Part shown: piece after piece, positions 8,933-49,002 of the stretch | How the letters are laid out: every line of letters starts with the position of its first letter | Numbering within the stretch: position 1 is the stretch's first letter | Source: Pascua guehoae | Taxonomy: Eukaryota; Basidiomycota; Tremellomycetes; Trichosporonales; Trichosporonaceae | DNA length: 64,000 bases | Direction of reading: 5' to 3' | NCBI GenBank assembly: GCA_001600415.1 | Contig: BCJX01000004.1 | Span: 1,197,689-1,261,688 of the forward strand | The notes under the pieces: generated by a model | Database searches by the model: none | Seen by the model: the letters and a program-made list of their open reading frames with translations, nothing else | What the model was told of the DNA's origin: nothing | Made by a program: the position numbers and the translations under genes

Positions 8933-9453
8933 CTACTGGAACTGGCCCGACTGGTTGAGCGCCTGCTCTGCCTGCTTCTGCGCGTCGTGCTTTGCCTTCT
9001 GCGCGTCGACCCAGTTGAGCCCCTTGCTCTCGATGAGCTTGTCGACCTCGGCCGCAGCGAGCGACGCAATGAGCGCCTTGGCGTTGCCGTGCTTGGGCGT
9101 CAGAGGATGCATACAAAAACGCAAGAGAGACTTGTGCGCGAGGTAGTACTCAGACTCACGCTGCTGACCTGGCCCTGCGAGGCCTGGTGGCGCTCGTACG
9201 CCTTGGCGGCGGCAAAGGCTGCGGCGCTCGAGATGAGCTCGTGCGAGAGGTGCGACTCGTGCTGTGGGTTGGACGGGTCGGCGTTGAGTGTCTTCTCGGC
9301 CTGCTGCTTGTTGAAGAAGTCGGTGATGCCTGCGGTGTGAGTGGGCGTGTCGGGGAGCGGGGAGCGAGTGGTGTGTTGGTCATTCCTACAACGACCGCGA
9401 CATCCGGGTAGTGTAACACCATACACTGTGGCCACTGTTTGAAACTCACCCAT
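8933..9453 (-). CDS. CipC-like small stress-response protein (DUF3759 type)
   Basis: Three exons (9450-9453, 9160-9329, 8933-9091) encode 110 aa. The protein reads MGITDFFNKQ, then HESHLSHELISSAAAFAAAKAYERHQ and HGNAKALIASLAAAEVDKLIESKG. The SHELI-x-A-A-x-F-A-x-x-K-A-x-E-x-H-Q and AEVDKL blocks are the hallmarks of the fungal CipC family, named for a concanamycin-induced protein in Aspergillus. It is usually a small cytosolic protein raised under stress or in infection; its biochemical role is unknown. Exon 1 holds only ATGG. The second acceptor is an unusual CCCAAG, but it joins the two conserved blocks in frame exactly as in the family. Confidence 0.8.
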
Positions 9454-10913
9454 GATGTTTTGTTTGCGGTGCGGTTGTGTTGTGAAAAGAGGAGGGGATG
9501 AAGGTCAGTACCAGAACCCGCATTTCGTCTCTATTTATGTTGCTTGGGCTGGGCCGTCTCCAGCACGACAGCAGCACTCTGGCTCGTCCGCTGACACGTT
9601 TGGGGGTCGGTAGCACAGCTCATATTCCCCTCTCGCAGCATGCAGGCTGACAGATTGTCTGCTCCTGGACTGCACAATCCATCACAACGTGCGCAAGAGC
9701 GGTGCAGAATAGGCTCCCGCATGTAGCCCATTAAGGCTCCTTTTGTGTGGTTGGATTGGAATTGCGCAGCAACCGGCAGCAGCCGAGTAGTAGAAACGCG
9801 ACGGGACGCGTCAGAGGCGTAGCCCCATTGTCACCTACAGTACAGTACTGTACTATTCCGTCCTTGCATTGCGTGCATGCGGCATCTTGCCTGACGCAAT
9901 CTGGCCAAGCGTGACGGCCAGATTCATTATCAAAGTCCAAATATAGAACCGTCGCAAGAATGATCGACACGATGTCACTAAAGCGATCGCAAGTAACCGC
10001 TTGTCACGAGCAACAGCTTGGGCCCGACTGGTCTAACTGGTATTCATGCGCGGGCATAGACTGCGAGATGGGAGATCGTGATGCACGAGATATGCGCTCG
10101 GCAGGCTTCCGCAGCTTGCAAGGAACACTTGCAAAGAACACGGCTGGCCGTTGCCTAGCTTCCGTCTTGAGTGTGGCGGATGAGAGCCAGGCAGACGCCT
10201 GGTGTCATGAAACATGCAGGACCGATACCAAGCTAGCGACTCGCTCTTACTTACAAGCCACTGCCTTACAGGTTGTTCATTTTGTCGCCGAGCTTTGTTG
10301 GGACATGCATAACGAATGACACCTGTGTGAGTTGTCGCTGATGCCGTCACGTGATTTCACATGGCATTGTGGCAGCACGGGAACCACAAGCCGCCCAACT
10401 GCTTTCGCGTTCTTCTCTTTCGCATCTCCTTACGTACTCCATTGGTGAACCATACCACTGGCCATGGAAGTCAACCCTATATGAACGCCCCAGCAGTGTC
10501 CGTGGACAACACCAACGCACACAAGTTGCTAACCATATGATATACCTATACCAGGGTGGAGATGTGGCATGATGATGACCGCTGTAGATGAGAAAGGTCA
10601 CCAGCAAGGACAAGAGAAGGAGCAATGAACAGTAGTACAAGGTGATGTGATAATAATTGGCACGGGTGGTGTGGCGCCCCATGAACACGCCACCATCACC
10701 ATCCCCCTTCAACAACAAGCTGACCTTCGTCCGTTTTTGCTCTGGCTCACCTTGCTCCTACCGCCTTCCTCTGTTTCCTCTTTGTCGTCTTCCTTCCCTC
10801 TCTCCACCCAAACTTCACACCCCTTCCTCACTCATTATTCTTTCATCCGCACGCTCCCTCCCATCCGTCAATCCATTCATTCACTCATCCGGCTCTTGTG
10901 ACGCTCCGTCGTC
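9454..10913. other. Intergenic region, no supported gene
   Basis: About 1.46 kb separates the divergent CipC-like and USP-like genes. An open frame of 119 codons at 9960-10319 (plus) has no recognisable domain and no coding support. The last 200 bp (about 10700-10910) are strongly pyrimidine-rich with CTCCCT/TTCCTC runs, typical of a fungal promoter and leader for the gene starting at 10914. Confidence 0.5.
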
Positions 10914-18700: not shown

Positions 18701-20168
18701 CACAGGGATCCCCAGCACCGACGAGTCTCGAAGCTGAGTAAAGTTCTGGTGCACACGCATGGACGTGTTGGGTCGGCCGCGAGCCGCGAGTCGATCTGGG
18801 TGTAAAACCAGTCGAAACGACCGATCAAGGGGGGGGGGAATGCAGGATCCTGCAGGATCCCTCAAGGTGCAAAAGGAAAAAGGTGAGGATTGACGTGCCT
18901 GACGTGACAAGGTGATCGCCGAGCGGACGACATCGCGTCTCTGTCTCTCAGTTCAAGGCATCAACCAAGATGCCCAGCTCTTGGCCGGAATTCACGGGTT
19001 ATTGCGGAGCATACCGAGCATGTAGAGACGCTGTTTGAACAAGCCAAACCGCCGTCATGGCATACCCCGGTCTTTGGGGTCCTGTCACGCCGCCACATGG
19101 GCATCCGCCGCCGCAGCTGCCGGTTAGGGCCCCCATCGTACGGAAGCAAATCCAGGTCGGAACACTGAAAATGGGCGTCGTGCTAGTCTCGATCTGTAGG
19201 CACAAACAAATCACCAGGAGACGACGCCTTTGCGTTGCGTCTGGCATGTATTCCATAGGAAGCAAAAGCTGCGGGGGCGCAAGAGAACCAGTGCATTGGA
19301 AACGCGCTATTCGTCACCAAGGGAAAGGACGGCTGCGGCGGTGGCGTGGGGCCAAGCGGGGGGAACGGCGCAGACTAGAGGATCAAGGCAAAGCGCGTGA
19401 CTCTCTAGAGGCAAGAAAACAACGCCAGCACAAGCAAGCCGCGGTCCGCCACGCCGATATTCCGAGCAGCCGGACGGCTATTGCTGGCATTGCTGGCTCA
19501 AACGGACCACGCGACCACGCATGACACCGGTATCCGGCCCGGGAGGCAAGGCAGTGGCGCCGGGCTGACCGACAGGTCAAGGTCAAGGTCAAGGGGGGGG
19601 GTGATGATGAATGATCGCATGGGTTGCATTGGCGCACGTCAGCCACTTTGCCGCCACTGGCGTCGTGCGGCGCCCCCTCTGCCCTGTCACTCGCTTCGAG
19701 ACGCGCTGCTCGTCTTGTATCTATCGATGTTTATCCGGCCCCCTTACCGTGCATGCAATGCAGCGGGCGCTCCAAACGGCCCATTTGTATTGCCGGTCAA
19801 GGTCAAGGAACGATGAATCGATGAGGTCAAAGGAACGATGAATCGACGAGGCCAAGCGCCAAGAGGCAAGCGCCGAGGCGCCGAGGCATGCCGCTGCATC
19901 ACGCACCACGGTGCAATGGGGCGCGAGTCGACTCGACAGCACATGATGCGCGGGCAATTCAGTATACTGTAGTGGTGTCAAGGCGACGACGTGTACCATC
20001 CGCAGCCGCGGGCGACGGGCGCACTGGCGTGCTGGTGTGATGCTGTAATGCGTCAGATGAGACGTATCCAAAAGTTAAAGGTACGCATGTACGCATGCGG
20101 TGGCGCGCGATGGGCGAGCGTGACATGTAAAGCATAAGGGGCGTTTGGGGTGGCGCCGGCGTTGCCGT

Positions 20169-20223
20169 GGGGGGGGGGGGGGGGGGGGGGGACTAGGGCC
20201 CCCAGCCCCCCCCCCCCCCCCCC
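20169..20223. repeat. G-run/C-run palindrome
   Basis: Twenty-three G (20169-20191) are followed by ACTAGGGCCCCCAG and then eighteen C (20206-20223). The two runs are complementary and could form a foldback, and either could form a quadruplex or i-motif. Such a stretch is also a classic place for sequencing or assembly error. Confidence 0.7.
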
Positions 20224-20929
20224 GGTCATGTGGTCGATTTAGAACCCAGCTGTCCGGGTGTGGAGAACGGGCGCACGGTCCTCATGACACACGGGTGCCA
20301 CTCATTCCGTCGTCATAGCGATAGTGATTCCTGCACACTCGAGGTGGCACCAGCTTGCTACTGTAACTGCGTTGCTAAACTCGTCGTCCCGCTGATGTTG
20401 TCATGCCCGCCCTGCCCCACTCGTCCTGCATATCGTGCATTCCTTTGGGCTGCAATAATGGATCTGCTCGACAGCCATTGTCTGCATGACGAGCACGGTC
20501 TTCCTTTGATTCAATGACACTGACACTGCTGTTCTGCAGTCGGCATTCCATGGGTTGTCCACGAGCCTCGACTATCGTCAGCCACATGTCACAGACTGCT
20601 GATAGGCTGAGCTGCAGTCCCCAGCACATGTGCTTGCTCTCGAGTACGTATAGCATCTGTGTGCGTTACACTCGGTTGCGGCGGACCGACCTTCCCTCGG
20701 GCCTCGGCAACGGCTAAAGGAAGGAAAGAAAGCAACGAAGCAAGGAAAGAACCGCACAGAGGTGCTGTGCCAAGTTGTACTTGAGAGTCTTGTGTGTTGT
20801 CAACCTCGGTTGTCAACGCGAAGAGTGCGCAAATCGCACCAAGAAAACACGTTATGCACGTTACTGCGTAAAATTAGAATTGCTTTCCGACAATCAAGCT
20901 TTATGCTTTGTGCCCAGACATTACACTAG

Positions 20930-22187
20930 TCCCAACCTTGCTTTGACCCGCCAACCTTGGTTAACCCAATCCTCTCTCTTGGCAGTCGTCGAAACCTCTG
21001 CTTTCACTGCTTTCACTACTACTCTCTCCTTGCTTCTCTCTCTCTCTCTCTTTCTCCCGGTGCTCTCTCTCCCCTCTCGCCTTGGCAAACTATACCGCCC
21101 CTTGCGTCTCAAGCGACTTTGGACCTTGCTTTGCCCTCTCCCTCTCTCTCGTCTTCTGTCTTCCTTTGCCCGCCCACCACGATCGTCCCACCTCAAGTCT
21201 CCTAGGCCTCGACTCTTCGGACCCACATCCACCCCCTCCGGCCGCCGGACCTTTGTTTTGGCACACTTCTCCCACACTCCCGTAGGCCCCGTCCCCGGAG
21301 TGGAGCCAAAGGACTGTCGACCTCGTCAGCATCGCAACATCCCGAGGCGGTTGGCCTGATCTCGGCGACCACCGCTCCTCCAGGCACGCGGCGCAGGTTG
21401 CATATCCCATCGTTTGGACGTGTGCACGTCTGCACGTCTGACACTTTGTGTGTGGCGCAAAAGATACACAACAGGTACACCGACAGGGCAGATATCTCTT
21501 CGCGCCGCGCCTCTGCGCCTCCGCCTCTTTTTCCCTGGCGCACACCCACCCACTCAAACCCCCCACCTATTATTCCATTGCCACTTTTTTAAGCTCTCCG
21601 CTCTCAAAACTTTCCCTTTCTCACTCTTCAACTCTCCATCCCTAGCTTTCTTTTCCAGGCACCGACCGCGCCAGGACGCGTAACACTGCACAGTGACACA
21701 TGCCTCTTTGTCCGTCTTTTCCTTGTCGTCGCCACTTTCGCACAAACCTCTCCCTGTCCCTCTCTCGCTTTTCGCTTTGCTCGCAAGCCCTCCCCACCCC
21801 ACACCCCGCACGCCGCCACTGGACCGCCACCGACCGCGCGCGACCTGGACCACCTGGACACTTTTGACCCTTCCCTTACCTCGTTTCTTGCGCTCCCAGC
21901 CATCGCTTGGCTTTTCATCCCCCTCCCTTTCGGCCCCGGTACCCGCAAACCGGCGACACCCCGCCCATGGCAATCGCGCTCCTTCTGACCCCCGTCGCCT
22001 CGTACTCTCTCCCACCGCGCCCCCAGCCCATTCATTCCTTTCAACGTGCCCCACGCGTATAAGATCAGCGATCAATCGCGCCCAGACCATCCATTCTTCC
22101 CCACGATCCTCTCTCCGAGACAACCAACCAATCGCACTACCGCCACACTCTACCACCGTACCACACTTGAACACACTCCATCTCATC
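20930..22187 (+). promoter_or_regulatory. Pyrimidine-rich leader/promoter of the secreted precursor gene
   Basis: About 1.2 kb of plus-strand C/T-rich sequence (long TCTCTCTC, CCCTCTC and CACCCC runs) leads to the ATG at 22188. Pyrimidine-rich tracts commonly precede highly expressed fungal genes. An open frame runs in phase upstream from 21693, but it has no signal peptide and looks noncoding, so I start the protein at 22188. A long or spliced 5' UTR is possible. Confidence 0.5.
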
Positions 22188-22640
22188 ATGAAGTTCCTCG
22201 GCCTCCTCCTCGTCGCCGCTACCTCCGTGGTCGCCGCCCCCGTCGCCCAATGGGGTGGTGGTGGTGGTCCATGCTCGGGTATCGCGTGCTGGAAGAAGGA
22301 CACGGTCGCTGAGCGTGCCGCCGAGGCCGAGGCCGAGGCCGAGGCTCAGTGGGGCGGCGGTGGTGGGCCATGCTCCGGTATCGCGTGCTGGAAGAAGGAC
22401 ACGGTCGCTGAGCGTGCCCCAGAGGCCGAGGCCTTAGCCGAGCGCTCCCCCGAGGCTGAGGCCGACGCCGAAGCCGAGGCTCAGTGGGGTGGTGGTGGTG
22501 GTCCATGCTCTGGCATCGCATGCTGGAAGAAGGACACTGTCGCCGAGCGTGCCCCCGAGGCCGAGGCCGAAGCCGAGGCTCAGTGGGGTGGTGGTGGTGG
22601 GCCATGCTCGGGCATCGCGTGCTGGAAGCGCGACGACTAA
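22188..22640 (+). CDS. Secreted alpha-factor-like repeat peptide precursor (4 units)
   Basis: One exon encodes 150 aa. Residues 1-17 (MKFLGLLLVAATSVVAA) form a clean signal peptide. Then follow four copies of QWGGGGGPCSGIACW, each ending in KK (the last in KR). The first three are followed by DTVAER and then an acidic spacer rich in EAEAEA. Dibasic KK/KR are Kex2-type sites, and EA dipeptides are what the Ste13 aminopeptidase trims. The design predicts release of several copies of a 15-residue peptide with two cysteines that could form a CX4C disulfide loop. This is the plan of ascomycete alpha-factor precursors and of Kex2-processed repeat proteins in general. A second gene of the same plan lies at 39096-39968. 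The coding DNA of the units is nearly identical, suggesting recent duplication or conversion. Receptor and role are unknown. Confidence 0.88.
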   Translation: MKFLGLLLVAATSVVAAPVAQWGGGGGPCSGIACWKKDTVAERAAEAEAEAEAQWGGGGGPCSGIACWKKDTVAERAPEAEALAERSPEAEADAEAEAQWGGGGGPCSGIACWKKDTVAERAPEAEAEAEAQWGGGGGPCSGIACWKRDD

Positions 22641-39095: not shown

Positions 39096-39968
39096 CTAGG
39101 CCTCACGCTTCATGGCGGCCTCGACGTGCGCTGCGGCCTCGGCCTCGCGCTTCTTCCAGCAGCCGGTGCCGCACGTCGCGCCGCTCTGGTCCCACTGGGC
39201 CTCGCGCTTCATGAGAGCCGCAGCCTCGGCCTCACGCTTCTTCCAGCAGCCGGTGCCGCACGTCGCGCCGCTTTGGTCCCACTGGGCCTCACGCTTCATG
39301 GCGGCGTCGGCCTGCGCCGCTGCCTCGGCGGCGCGCTTCTTCCAGCAACCGGTACCGCATGTAGCGCCGCTCTGGTCCCACTGGGGGGCAGCCTCGGCCT
39401 CACGCTTCATGGCAGCGTCGGCCGCCGCGGCCGCCGCGGCCTCACGCTTCTTCCAGCAGCCAGTGCCGCAGGTCGCGCCACTTTGGTCCCACTGGGGGGA
39501 GGCCTCACGCTTCATGGCGATCTTGACCTCGGCCGCGGCCTCGGCCTCGCGCTTCTTCCAGCAGCCGGTGCCGCATGTAGCGCCACTTTGGTCCCACTGC
39601 CGGGGAGAGACTTCATCTGAGGTTAGCGGACGTCGCATTGGGGGAGATATAGTGAATAGATGGTCAGGAGAAGACTGAGGACGACGGAGAGGGAGGGAAC
39701 AGGGAGGCCGAGAACACGTAGTAGAACTATTCTACGATATAGAGGGTGACAGTGACTGGCCCCCTGGCTACATGTCCCAGGAATGTGGAACATGATGCAA
39801 GGGACAGGAGTCAGAGACAAGTTGGTCACTTTCGTAGGACCCGGTCGATCGGTAAGGGACAAGACCAGACCGGCAAGGGACAAGACCGGCAAGCTACCCA
39901 CCATCGGTGACAGGGACCGCAATAGCAGTGGCGAACAGGGCGAACAGGGCGAGGAACGAGGTCTTCAT
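39096..39968 (-). CDS. Secreted alpha-factor-like repeat peptide precursor (5 units)
   Basis: Two exons (39902-39968 and 39096-39616) encode 195 aa. Exon 1 encodes the signal peptide MKTSFLALFALFATAIA plus VPVTD. The 285-nt intron joins GAT-G|AT and keeps the frame. Exon 2 encodes five copies of QWDQSGATCGTGCW, each followed by KKR and an alanine/EA-rich spacer (for example EAEAAA), most ending MKREA directly before the next QW. KKR and MKR are Kex2-type sites, and the EA pairs fit Ste13 trimming. The predicted product is a 14-residue peptide with a CX3C loop, Gln at the N-terminus and Trp at the C-terminus. The architecture matches the 22188-22640 gene (QW start, CW-KK end), although the core sequence differs. 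The final spacer ends KREA at the stop. Function unknown, with secreted signalling the leading idea. Confidence 0.88.
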
Positions 39969-42984: not shown

Positions 42985-43402
42985 GTAAGTACAGACGCCC
43001 AGCGCAACGCGACGTGTTCCGAAAGTCCCCTGAGCGGACATCACGCCCCAGTCGTGAGCATTCAGACTCGCAGGCCGTCAGCCGATGCGCGAAAGTCACG
43101 CTCTCGCTCGTCGCAATATGCGTATGTTGCACTCTCTCGTGACGGAGGGTGCAATCCCAACTGGCGGTAACCGAGCAGTTCAGAATACAGTAGAGTGCCA
43201 GAGGTGTCGCGTCAGTCCATGTCGCCCGTGCCACCACTATCCCCAGGCCGCGGAGAAGAAGCCATGCGATTTGGACACACAGTCCATTCGCGACTGCGTG
43301 AGCAAGACAGCTCAAAAGTGACGTCCCGTGCTCCCAACAGGGCAAAAGAGAGAGACTTGGCAAACATAGCCGCTAACGTGAAACTGGGCAGAAAAGAAAT
43401 TT

Positions 43403-43493
43403 ATCGCCAGCAGGTTTCGATCCTGCGATCTCCAGGTATCATGCGAACAAATGTCGATATGAGCCTGGCGCTTTCCCACTAAGCCATAGCGAT
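43403..43493 (-). tRNA. tRNA-iMet: Initiator tRNA-Met (CAT) with 20-nt intron
   Basis: The minus strand folds into a full cloverleaf. Acceptor ATCGCTA pairs with TGGCGAT (first pair A-T, as in eukaryotic initiators). The D arm is GCTT-AGTGGGA-AAGC, the anticodon stem CCAGG/CCTGG with loop CTCATAA, and the T arm GCAGG-ATCGAAA-CCTGC. The ATCGAAA T-loop (A54/A60 in place of TTC) is the initiator-specific signature. A 20-nt intron lies after the base 3' of the anticodon, the canonical site. Mature length is about 71 nt. A TTTT stretch follows within 12 nt of the 3' end, a polymerase III terminator. The SEN2 subunit of the intron-removing endonuclease is encoded 6 kb away, which is probably coincidence. 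Confidence 0.88.
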
Positions 43494-45290: not shown

Positions 45291-45351
<61 letters not shown>

Positions 45352-45355
45352 TCCC

Positions 45356-45405
<50 letters not shown>

Positions 45406-47872: not shown

Positions 47873-49002
47873 GAGAGGGAAGCGTGGAGGCGTGGAGGCG
47901 TGGAGGNNNNNNNNNNNNNNNNNNNNNNNNNNNNNNNNNNNNNNNNNNNNNGTGGAGGCGTGGAGGCGTGGAGGCGTGGAGGCGTGGAGGCGTGGAGGCG
48001 TGGAGGCGTGGCCTGCGGTTGTGGTTGTGGTTGTGGTTGTGGTTGTGGTTGTGGTTGTGGTTGTGGTGGTGGTTGTGGTGGTGGTTGTGGTTGTGGTTGC
48101 GGTGGTGGTGGTGTTGGAGGGGTGAGGGGTTGGCTGGTTGGTCTTGGTCTTTGGGTTTGCGTTGTATACGCATGGTACCACAGCATGTTACGTTGCATTG
48201 CATTACTCCTGGTGGCTGAAAGCGAGATTGCGTAGACTTTTCCAATGTGGGCTACACGAGAAATACTCAAAACTCCAGTGGTCTCCTCAATCCTGCTCGC
48301 TCTCCGCTGCCGCGTCGTGCACCACGAGTCTGCGTACAGATGGCCGAGGCGAGAATGGGTCGCAGATGCATACATACTTGTTTCCTTGCGGCGAACCCTT
48401 GAGATGACGAAGGGGCACTACTGTTCAATGGCAACGATGCATGATACCGTTTCACCAACGATGTTTCAATGTGGAGGAGTCCATCCTACGGTGAAATCCT
48501 GGATATCGGCAGCTTCAAGTGATCCAGTTATGCTGGGGATGGAGACTCTCCTATCGACCTGAGAGGCGTCCTTCGCGACGATGTGGCAACGAGCGGGACT
48601 GCAGGGGTAGCTAGTGGCGAGGGACGGACCAAGGTTTCCGTTGGAGGTCGCAGTGCTACACGACGCGCGTCTGGATTCCATATGGCTGCCTCATGCTGTG
48701 CAGAGCTCATGGCAGTGGTTACCTGTCCGCCACCAAGCATCTGGCCCCCGGCCGTTCGGCATCGTGTGGACGACATGGCACGAGCATCAAGCACAGGTGC
48801 GGCGTTCAAGTCGAAAGACGACTCGGTCCAAGTGCCACACCCACGTGGGTGGTCCCTGTGGGGCACCAACATTTCGTCCCTTTGCCACCAACATTTTCCC
48901 CCACCCACACCCACACCCACTTGAACCCCTCCTCTGTACTGTACGCACCCGACACAACCCCTCATCCATCCCCCATCACGCCAGACAACAAACACACCCG
49001 CC
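47873..49002. other. Intergenic region with tandem repeats and a gap
   Basis: A GGCGTGGA octamer-type array at 47884-48009 is interrupted by 45 N (47907-47951). A GTGGTT hexamer array follows at about 48014-48110. The remainder to 49002 has no gene; the last 150 bp contain CACCCACACCCAC repeats before the SEN2 start. Confidence 0.6.
47884..48110 (+). repeat. GGCGTGGA array, gap, and GTGGTT array
   Basis: At least thirteen GGCGTGGA-like units surround 45 N, so true copy number is unknown. The adjoining array is GTGGTT with occasional GTGGTG units. Both are simple satellites and not the TTAGGG telomere repeat. Confidence 0.8.

Follow-up and report, generated by a model that had tools for sequence, protein, structure and literature searches.

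Two putative sister precursors of alpha-pheromone-like peptides lie apart from the mating-type genes in a basidiomycete genome

What does a gene built on the plan of an ascomycete alpha-pheromone precursor do in a basidiomycete, a group whose sexual pheromones are held to be of the a-type only (PMC6339444)? The question was raised by a first-pass annotation of the window, by which we mean the whole 64,000-nucleotide stretch analysed here; it had described a precursor resembling that of alpha-factor, with several copies of a two-cysteine Q-W...C-W peptide, a description that the analysis supports. Precursor gene 1 (22188..22640, plus strand) reads in translation as an uninterrupted ORF from its first ATG to a TAA, with no need of an intron, and encodes 150 aa with a signal-like start and four copies of QWGGGGGPCSGIACW. 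The signal-like hydrophobic segment, MKFLGLLLVAATSVVAAPVA (22188..22247), was recognised by eye in the translation, and units 1 to 4 occupy positions 22248..22292, 22347..22391, 22482..22526 and 22581..22625 of the same strand. The dibasic pairs that had been reported after every unit are indeed there (KK after each of the first three, KR after the fourth), and the EA-rich spacers are likewise evident in the translation. After the fourth unit, KR is followed by DD and the stop codon, and the C-terminus is KRDD. On the N-terminal side, units 2-4 have the R of an ER pair as their basic residue; unit 1 has no basic site upstream, and signal cleavage is presumed to precede its dipeptide spacer. 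The four units, previously called near-identical, are all present and prove, when the translation and the DNA copies are compared, to be identical in protein. The array accounts for two Tandem Repeats Finder rows, scoring 324 and 418.

The ORF at 22188-22640 is real, but the account of a single precursor left something out: the minus strand carries another precursor built in the same way, at 39968..39096. Tandem Repeats Finder first showed it as an array at 39136-39607, the minus strand of which encodes QWDQSGATCGTGCW five times. Precursor gene 2 encodes 195 aa and has one predicted intron of 285 nt. Exon 1 (39902..39968) provides a signal-like start, MKTSFLALFALFATAIAVPVTD, judged by eye; the predicted intron (39617..39901) has a GTGGGT donor at 39901 and the acceptor CTAACCTCAG ending at 39617; and exon 2 (39096..39616) carries the five units, with KKR after each and KR-(X-A/X-P)n before units 2-5. 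When GTRNGY donors in the first 110 nt were combined with YAG acceptors in the first 420 nt, this donor and acceptor were the sole pair keeping the repeats in frame. The five units are identical in protein, all five are followed by KKR, unit 1 stands directly after PR, and the C-terminus is KREA. The two genes are convergent, with their stop codons 16.5 kb apart. A pyrimidine-rich stretch (20700-22187) lies ahead of gene 1, with a GC skew of -0.20 over 20001-22000, and a TATAAG is found about 130 nt upstream of its ATG; gene 2 has a TATAAG (40060) about 92 nt upstream of its ATG. Within 600 nt, the two promoters have seven 9-mers in common; in 200 shuffles the number averaged 2.1 and rose as high as 8, and a sharing of motifs between them is not clear enough to claim.

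A KEX2-processed repeat protein (KEP) is recognised by three or more repeats with Kex2-type basic sites on their flanks; gene 1 has four units with KK or KR, and gene 2 five with KKR. Both precursors have N-termini that appear hydrophobic by eye, and both units contain two Cys and a C-terminal CW, the Cys spacing in the two peptides being C-x4-C and C-x3-C. Each gene has seven variable sites among the DNA copies of its core, every one of them a third position and silent. The values of this all-silent outcome under random single-base changes, 4e-5 for gene 1 and 9e-6 for gene 2, are guides only, because the unit copies are related and may have been homogenised. The spacers vary in length and sequence, yet all eight of those scored can be read as a run of X-A/X-P dipeptides up to the Gln. 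A spacer was scored from the last Arg to the Gln or, for gene 1 unit 1, from the presumed site of signal cleavage; the scoring left out gene 2 unit 1 and, of the long gene 1 spacer, the part upstream of its internal ER. Shuffling the order of residues in the spacers (20,000 shuffles each) gave 2e-9 as the joint value, which is likewise only a guide, because the copies are related and the cut points were chosen by the analyst. In gene 1, the STE13 signature is found in three spacers after ER, which is not dibasic, and in one after the presumed signal cleavage.

This spacer design bears on whether the repeats are released at all. The Kex2-type sites of gene 1 (KK, ER) are weaker than those of gene 2, as would suit a cell-surface protein that stays unprocessed or partly processed, in the manner of Rep1. 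Rep1, however, has no STE13 signature (PMC6339444), whereas every scored spacer here (8/8) has one, and we rejected this reading on that ground as very improbable. Neither protein, moreover, has in its sequence a hydrophobic C-terminus for a GPI anchor. Cyclised RiPP precursors of the ustiloxin/dikaritin type have the KEP scaffold in common with our genes, but Tyr, which has a role in ustiloxins, occurs in neither core. UstYa (DUF3328) had no match in the genome, as in every control genome, and none of the 40 window ORFs covered by a Pfam scan had one; the lack of Tyr and of a UstYa match led us to reject this reading too, as scarcely credible.

The Pfam scan of those 40 ORFs, both precursors included, in which short exons may be missed, found no UstYa, GPCR or transporter domain. 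The genes that it recognised are mostly ordinary: ribosomal L5, Erg28, enoyl-CoA hydratase, PX/PXB proteins, the Phe-tRNA synthetase beta chain, a protein with a thioredoxin domain and one with DUF3759, the last at 8936-9504 (minus strand) in two overlapping ORFs. Between 14.3 and 26.2 kb, the coding score gives only two weak segments besides gene 1. The window also holds a tRNA at 43402-43493 (minus strand; Rfam 55.1 bits, 92 nt, perhaps intron-bearing), missed by ARAGORN under bacterial settings, as well as a 112-nt poly-C tract (45292-45403) and GGTTGT repeated 16 times (48017-48113), both from Tandem Repeats Finder, and 218 N.

Are there further members of the pair? Homology and pattern searches of the genome (33.6 Mb) found these two loci only. 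Gene 1 as query had two matches, itself (E 4.4e-93) and gene 2 (E 7.0e-10), and gene 2 as query also had two, itself (E 1.1e-106) and gene 1 (E 1.1e-7). The pattern Q(x)W...CWK, which is blind to precursors having other cores, matched the genome 93 times, 9 of them inside genes 1 and 2; reading the list of the remaining 84 revealed no further place with two non-overlapping matches at most 1 kb apart. An earlier pattern, CWK plus an acidic residue, matched 66 times in the genome and 41 times in the control, with a cluster at gene 1 only. A fixed-length pattern with the geometry of gene 2 matched 13 viral contigs, once each, and these matches were taken as chance. Identical 32-nt strings at C4:577821, C4:630445 and C6:111096, and near-identical 50-nt strings at C6:26075 and C25:8374, are probably dispersed repeats. 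Neither precursor matched Pfam MF_alpha or MF_alpha_N at E values up to 0.1, and a yeast alpha-factor family reading was rejected for want of both matches; matches to DFRP_C and CCAP were weaker than the curated threshold allows and were dismissed as effects of composition. A reading as CAAX pheromones was likewise rejected, KRDD and KREA being C-termini without a CAAX box. The CAAX (a-type) pheromones of basidiomycetes differ in that their precursor is small and ends in a CAAX box, and they have no feature of the plan in common with our genes.

To which known peptides, then, are these units closest? Trichosporon oleaginosus and Cutaneotrichosporon oleaginosum are synonyms. Under the second name, this basidiomycete yeast has been placed in the Trichosporonales (PMC6730849); under the first, Le Marquer et al. 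(2019) reported a KEP with QSWGGCGGRGTPCW repeats and STE13 signatures, noted the likeness of QSWGGCGGRGTPCW to Sordariomycete pheromones and suggested a non-sexual function (PMC6339444). The first-pass annotation had called the family unrecognised, a view that this publication does not support. The T. oleaginosus KEP resembles ours in its repeated two-Cys peptide, its Q(S)W start, its CW end and its STE13 signatures, and differs in having C-x6-C against C-x4-C and C-x3-C here, the comparison being of its 14-residue peptide only; the text of that article (PMC6339444) speaks of one protein, whereas the present genome encodes two precursors, each with its own peptide. When the units of genes 1 and 2 were aligned, their score was reached by none of 2000 shuffles, and alignment to QSWGGCGGRGTPCW gave P 0.002 for gene 1 and P 0.017 for gene 2. 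Judged from these sequences, genes 1 and 2 are paralogous KEPs of the alpha-pheromone-like type, which is a known kind.

The relation to ascomycete pheromones is of another order. The Fusarium alpha-pheromone, WCTWRGQPCW, is likewise secreted, with two Cys and a C-terminal CW (PMC7289986), and filamentous ascomycete alpha-pheromones have KEX2 and STE13 sites in their precursors (PMC6339444), but a Ste2 receptor and a mating role are theirs. The T. oleaginosus peptide aligns with the Fusarium pheromone (P 0.001), whereas our two units, at P 0.09 and 0.16, do not go beyond shuffles. Because of these values, the resemblance of our peptides to ascomycete pheromones, in plan and in ends (W, two Cys, CW), appears as resemblance and not as shown homology. 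Among basidiomycetes, the KEPs of agaricomycetes (Coprinopsis and others) include some that are probably STE13-processed, although no Q-W...C-W peptide is among the named ones compared here (PMC9769878). Umemura (2020) gave a figure of 1.00 KEP per strain in Tremellomycetes (PMC7329392). In the open-licence literature we did not find two such precursors in one Trichosporonales genome; a second may sit unremarked in supplementary KEP tables.

How might the peptides be matured? The genome has a P_proprotein locus, the mark of a Kex2-type protease, on contig C16, and a DPPIV_N locus on C14 (E 3.2e-94) that resembles, in this N-terminal domain, dipeptidyl peptidase 4 chains in the PDB. Both precursors very likely give rise to secreted peptides. 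The pathway that we infer extends from secretion through every cleavage step, Kex1-type trimming included, to signalling and the class of receptor. Both precursors would enter the secretory pathway and be cut at their basic sites by Kex2 in the Golgi; a Kex1-type carboxypeptidase would trim the KK/KR remnants, and a Ste13-type dipeptidyl peptidase would strip the X-A/X-P leader, two residues per step. Up to four copies of QWGGGGGPCSGIACW per gene 1 precursor, and up to five of QWDQSGATCGTGCW per gene 2 precursor, would thereby be released. As KK and ER are poorer Kex2 sites than KR, and because KK follows three of the four units and ER precedes units 2-4, the maturation of gene 1 would be less canonical than that of gene 2. 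The N-terminal Gln of the released peptides may turn into pyro-Glu; Glu_cyclase_2 had no match in this genome and matched 3 of 14 control genomes. The predicted monoisotopic masses of QWGGGGGPCSGIACW are 1434.581 unmodified, 1417.554 as pyro-Glu and 1415.539 with both pyro-Glu and a disulfide; those of QWDQSGATCGTGCW are, in the same order, 1498.561, 1481.534 and 1479.518. Vogt et al. (2022) detected mushroom KEP peptides, including agaricomycete ones that are probably processed by a STE13-type enzyme and pyro-Glu forms (PMC9769878). A disulfide product of the units should not be assumed, because the oxidised Fusarium alpha-pheromone was without activity (PMC7289986).

Could the peptides nevertheless act in mating, an option that the first-pass annotation had left standing? 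They might serve as a second pheromone or, like Qsp1, as a modulator imported via an oligopeptide transporter. Their Q-W...C-W ends are like those of ascomycete alpha-pheromones, and the Cryptococcus peptide Qsp1, also a secreted tremellomycete signal, regulates mating and requires the transporter Opt1 (PMC7537855). The plan of Qsp1 is different, however: its pro-peptide is matured extracellularly by Pqp1, and it acts inside the cell after Opt1-requiring import (PMC7537855).

The genes expected of a mating-type locus lie elsewhere, the peptide genes being on contig C4 and the MAT set on C5. Two adjoining matches to STE3 (PF02076), which we read as one gene, are at C5:891564-892495, and a CAAX mini-ORF of 43 aa ending in CTIA is at C5:887235-887366, 4.2 kb away. 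This ORF was not recognised by Pfam PF08015, and it is one of seven fits to a looser pattern in 60 kb, the reversed sequence giving three such fits. A likeness of its start to those of Cryptococcus MF precursors and its proximity to STE3 were two of the grounds on which it was picked. The third was its fit to the Trichosporonales pheromone consensus of Sun et al. (PMC6730849). Homeobox_KN has a single match in the genome, at C5:949465, 57 kb from STE3. A strict homeodomain expression found nothing in 120 kb, the Homeobox_KN site within that stretch having escaped it, and a looser one gave four matches, which were rejected by eye, and again missed the site. The apparent fused MAT locus, with the CAAX mini-ORF, STE3 and the KN homeobox, spans C5:887235-949584. 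Sun et al. analysed 24 Trichosporonales species and reported the MAT loci as fused, with about 55 kb between them, in every one (PMC6730849). The C5 set fits this layout, and the earlier suggestion of the Trichosporonales agrees with it.

STE2 (PF02116) had no match in this genome, nor in any of 14 control genomes, by the method that found STE3; a 2026 review gives class I (Ste2) receptors in Ascomycota only (PMC13308352). Because the MAT set is on another contig, because the genome that carries both precursors has a single STE3 locus, and because STE2 is unmatched, in a search with no positive control, a mating role is unlikely.

What, then, might the peptides do? They probably act, although we hold this with considerable reserve, as self-signals outside mating: two paralogous KEPs, matured by Kex2 and Ste13, whose products would be extracellular autocrine or paracrine signals, distinct from the MAT-encoded mating pheromone and perceived by a receptor other than a recognisable Ste2. 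Quorum or hormone-like signalling is possible. The Fusarium alpha-pheromone is both a chemoattractant and a quorum-sensing signal (PMC7289986), and it exerts autocrine, density-dependent control of germination (PMC13097639). In Coprinopsis cinerea, on the other hand, knockouts of six KEPs showed no evident phenotype in the conditions that were tried (PMC9769878), which counts against the self-signal reading. These knockouts are also among the points in favour of peptides directed at other organisms, competitors or a host, since the authors of the agaricomycete study favour biotic interaction (PMC9769878), and two diverged paralogues could be two agents. But QWGGGGGPCSGIACW has no charged side chain and QWDQSGATCGTGCW only one Asp, unlike cationic membrane-active peptides; a leader made of X-A/X-P pairs is characteristic of alpha-pheromones (PMC6339444); and the identity of all copies fits a tightly constrained ligand. 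We regard an action on other organisms as unlikely and retain self-signalling outside mating as the preferred reading. For the Trichosporonales as a whole, we offer as a tentative and rather doubtful proposal that the pair represents a second, two-ligand system of the alpha-pheromone type, apart from MAT and with a non-Ste2 receptor, the ligand pair having been kept or acquired in a phylum without the class I receptor.

The kind of precursor is already known; what is added here is the pair, the second peptide and their location away from a MAT locus of ordinary type. With class I receptors reported from Ascomycota alone (PMC13308352), alpha-type ligands whose Kex2/Ste13 design is intact raise, in this fungus, the question of what senses them. 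With two sister precursors, different mature peptides of exact sequence and mass, and MAT genes elsewhere, this genome offers a ready test system. The presence of such sister precursors apart from MAT suggests that the alpha-type precursor design serves signalling outside mating.
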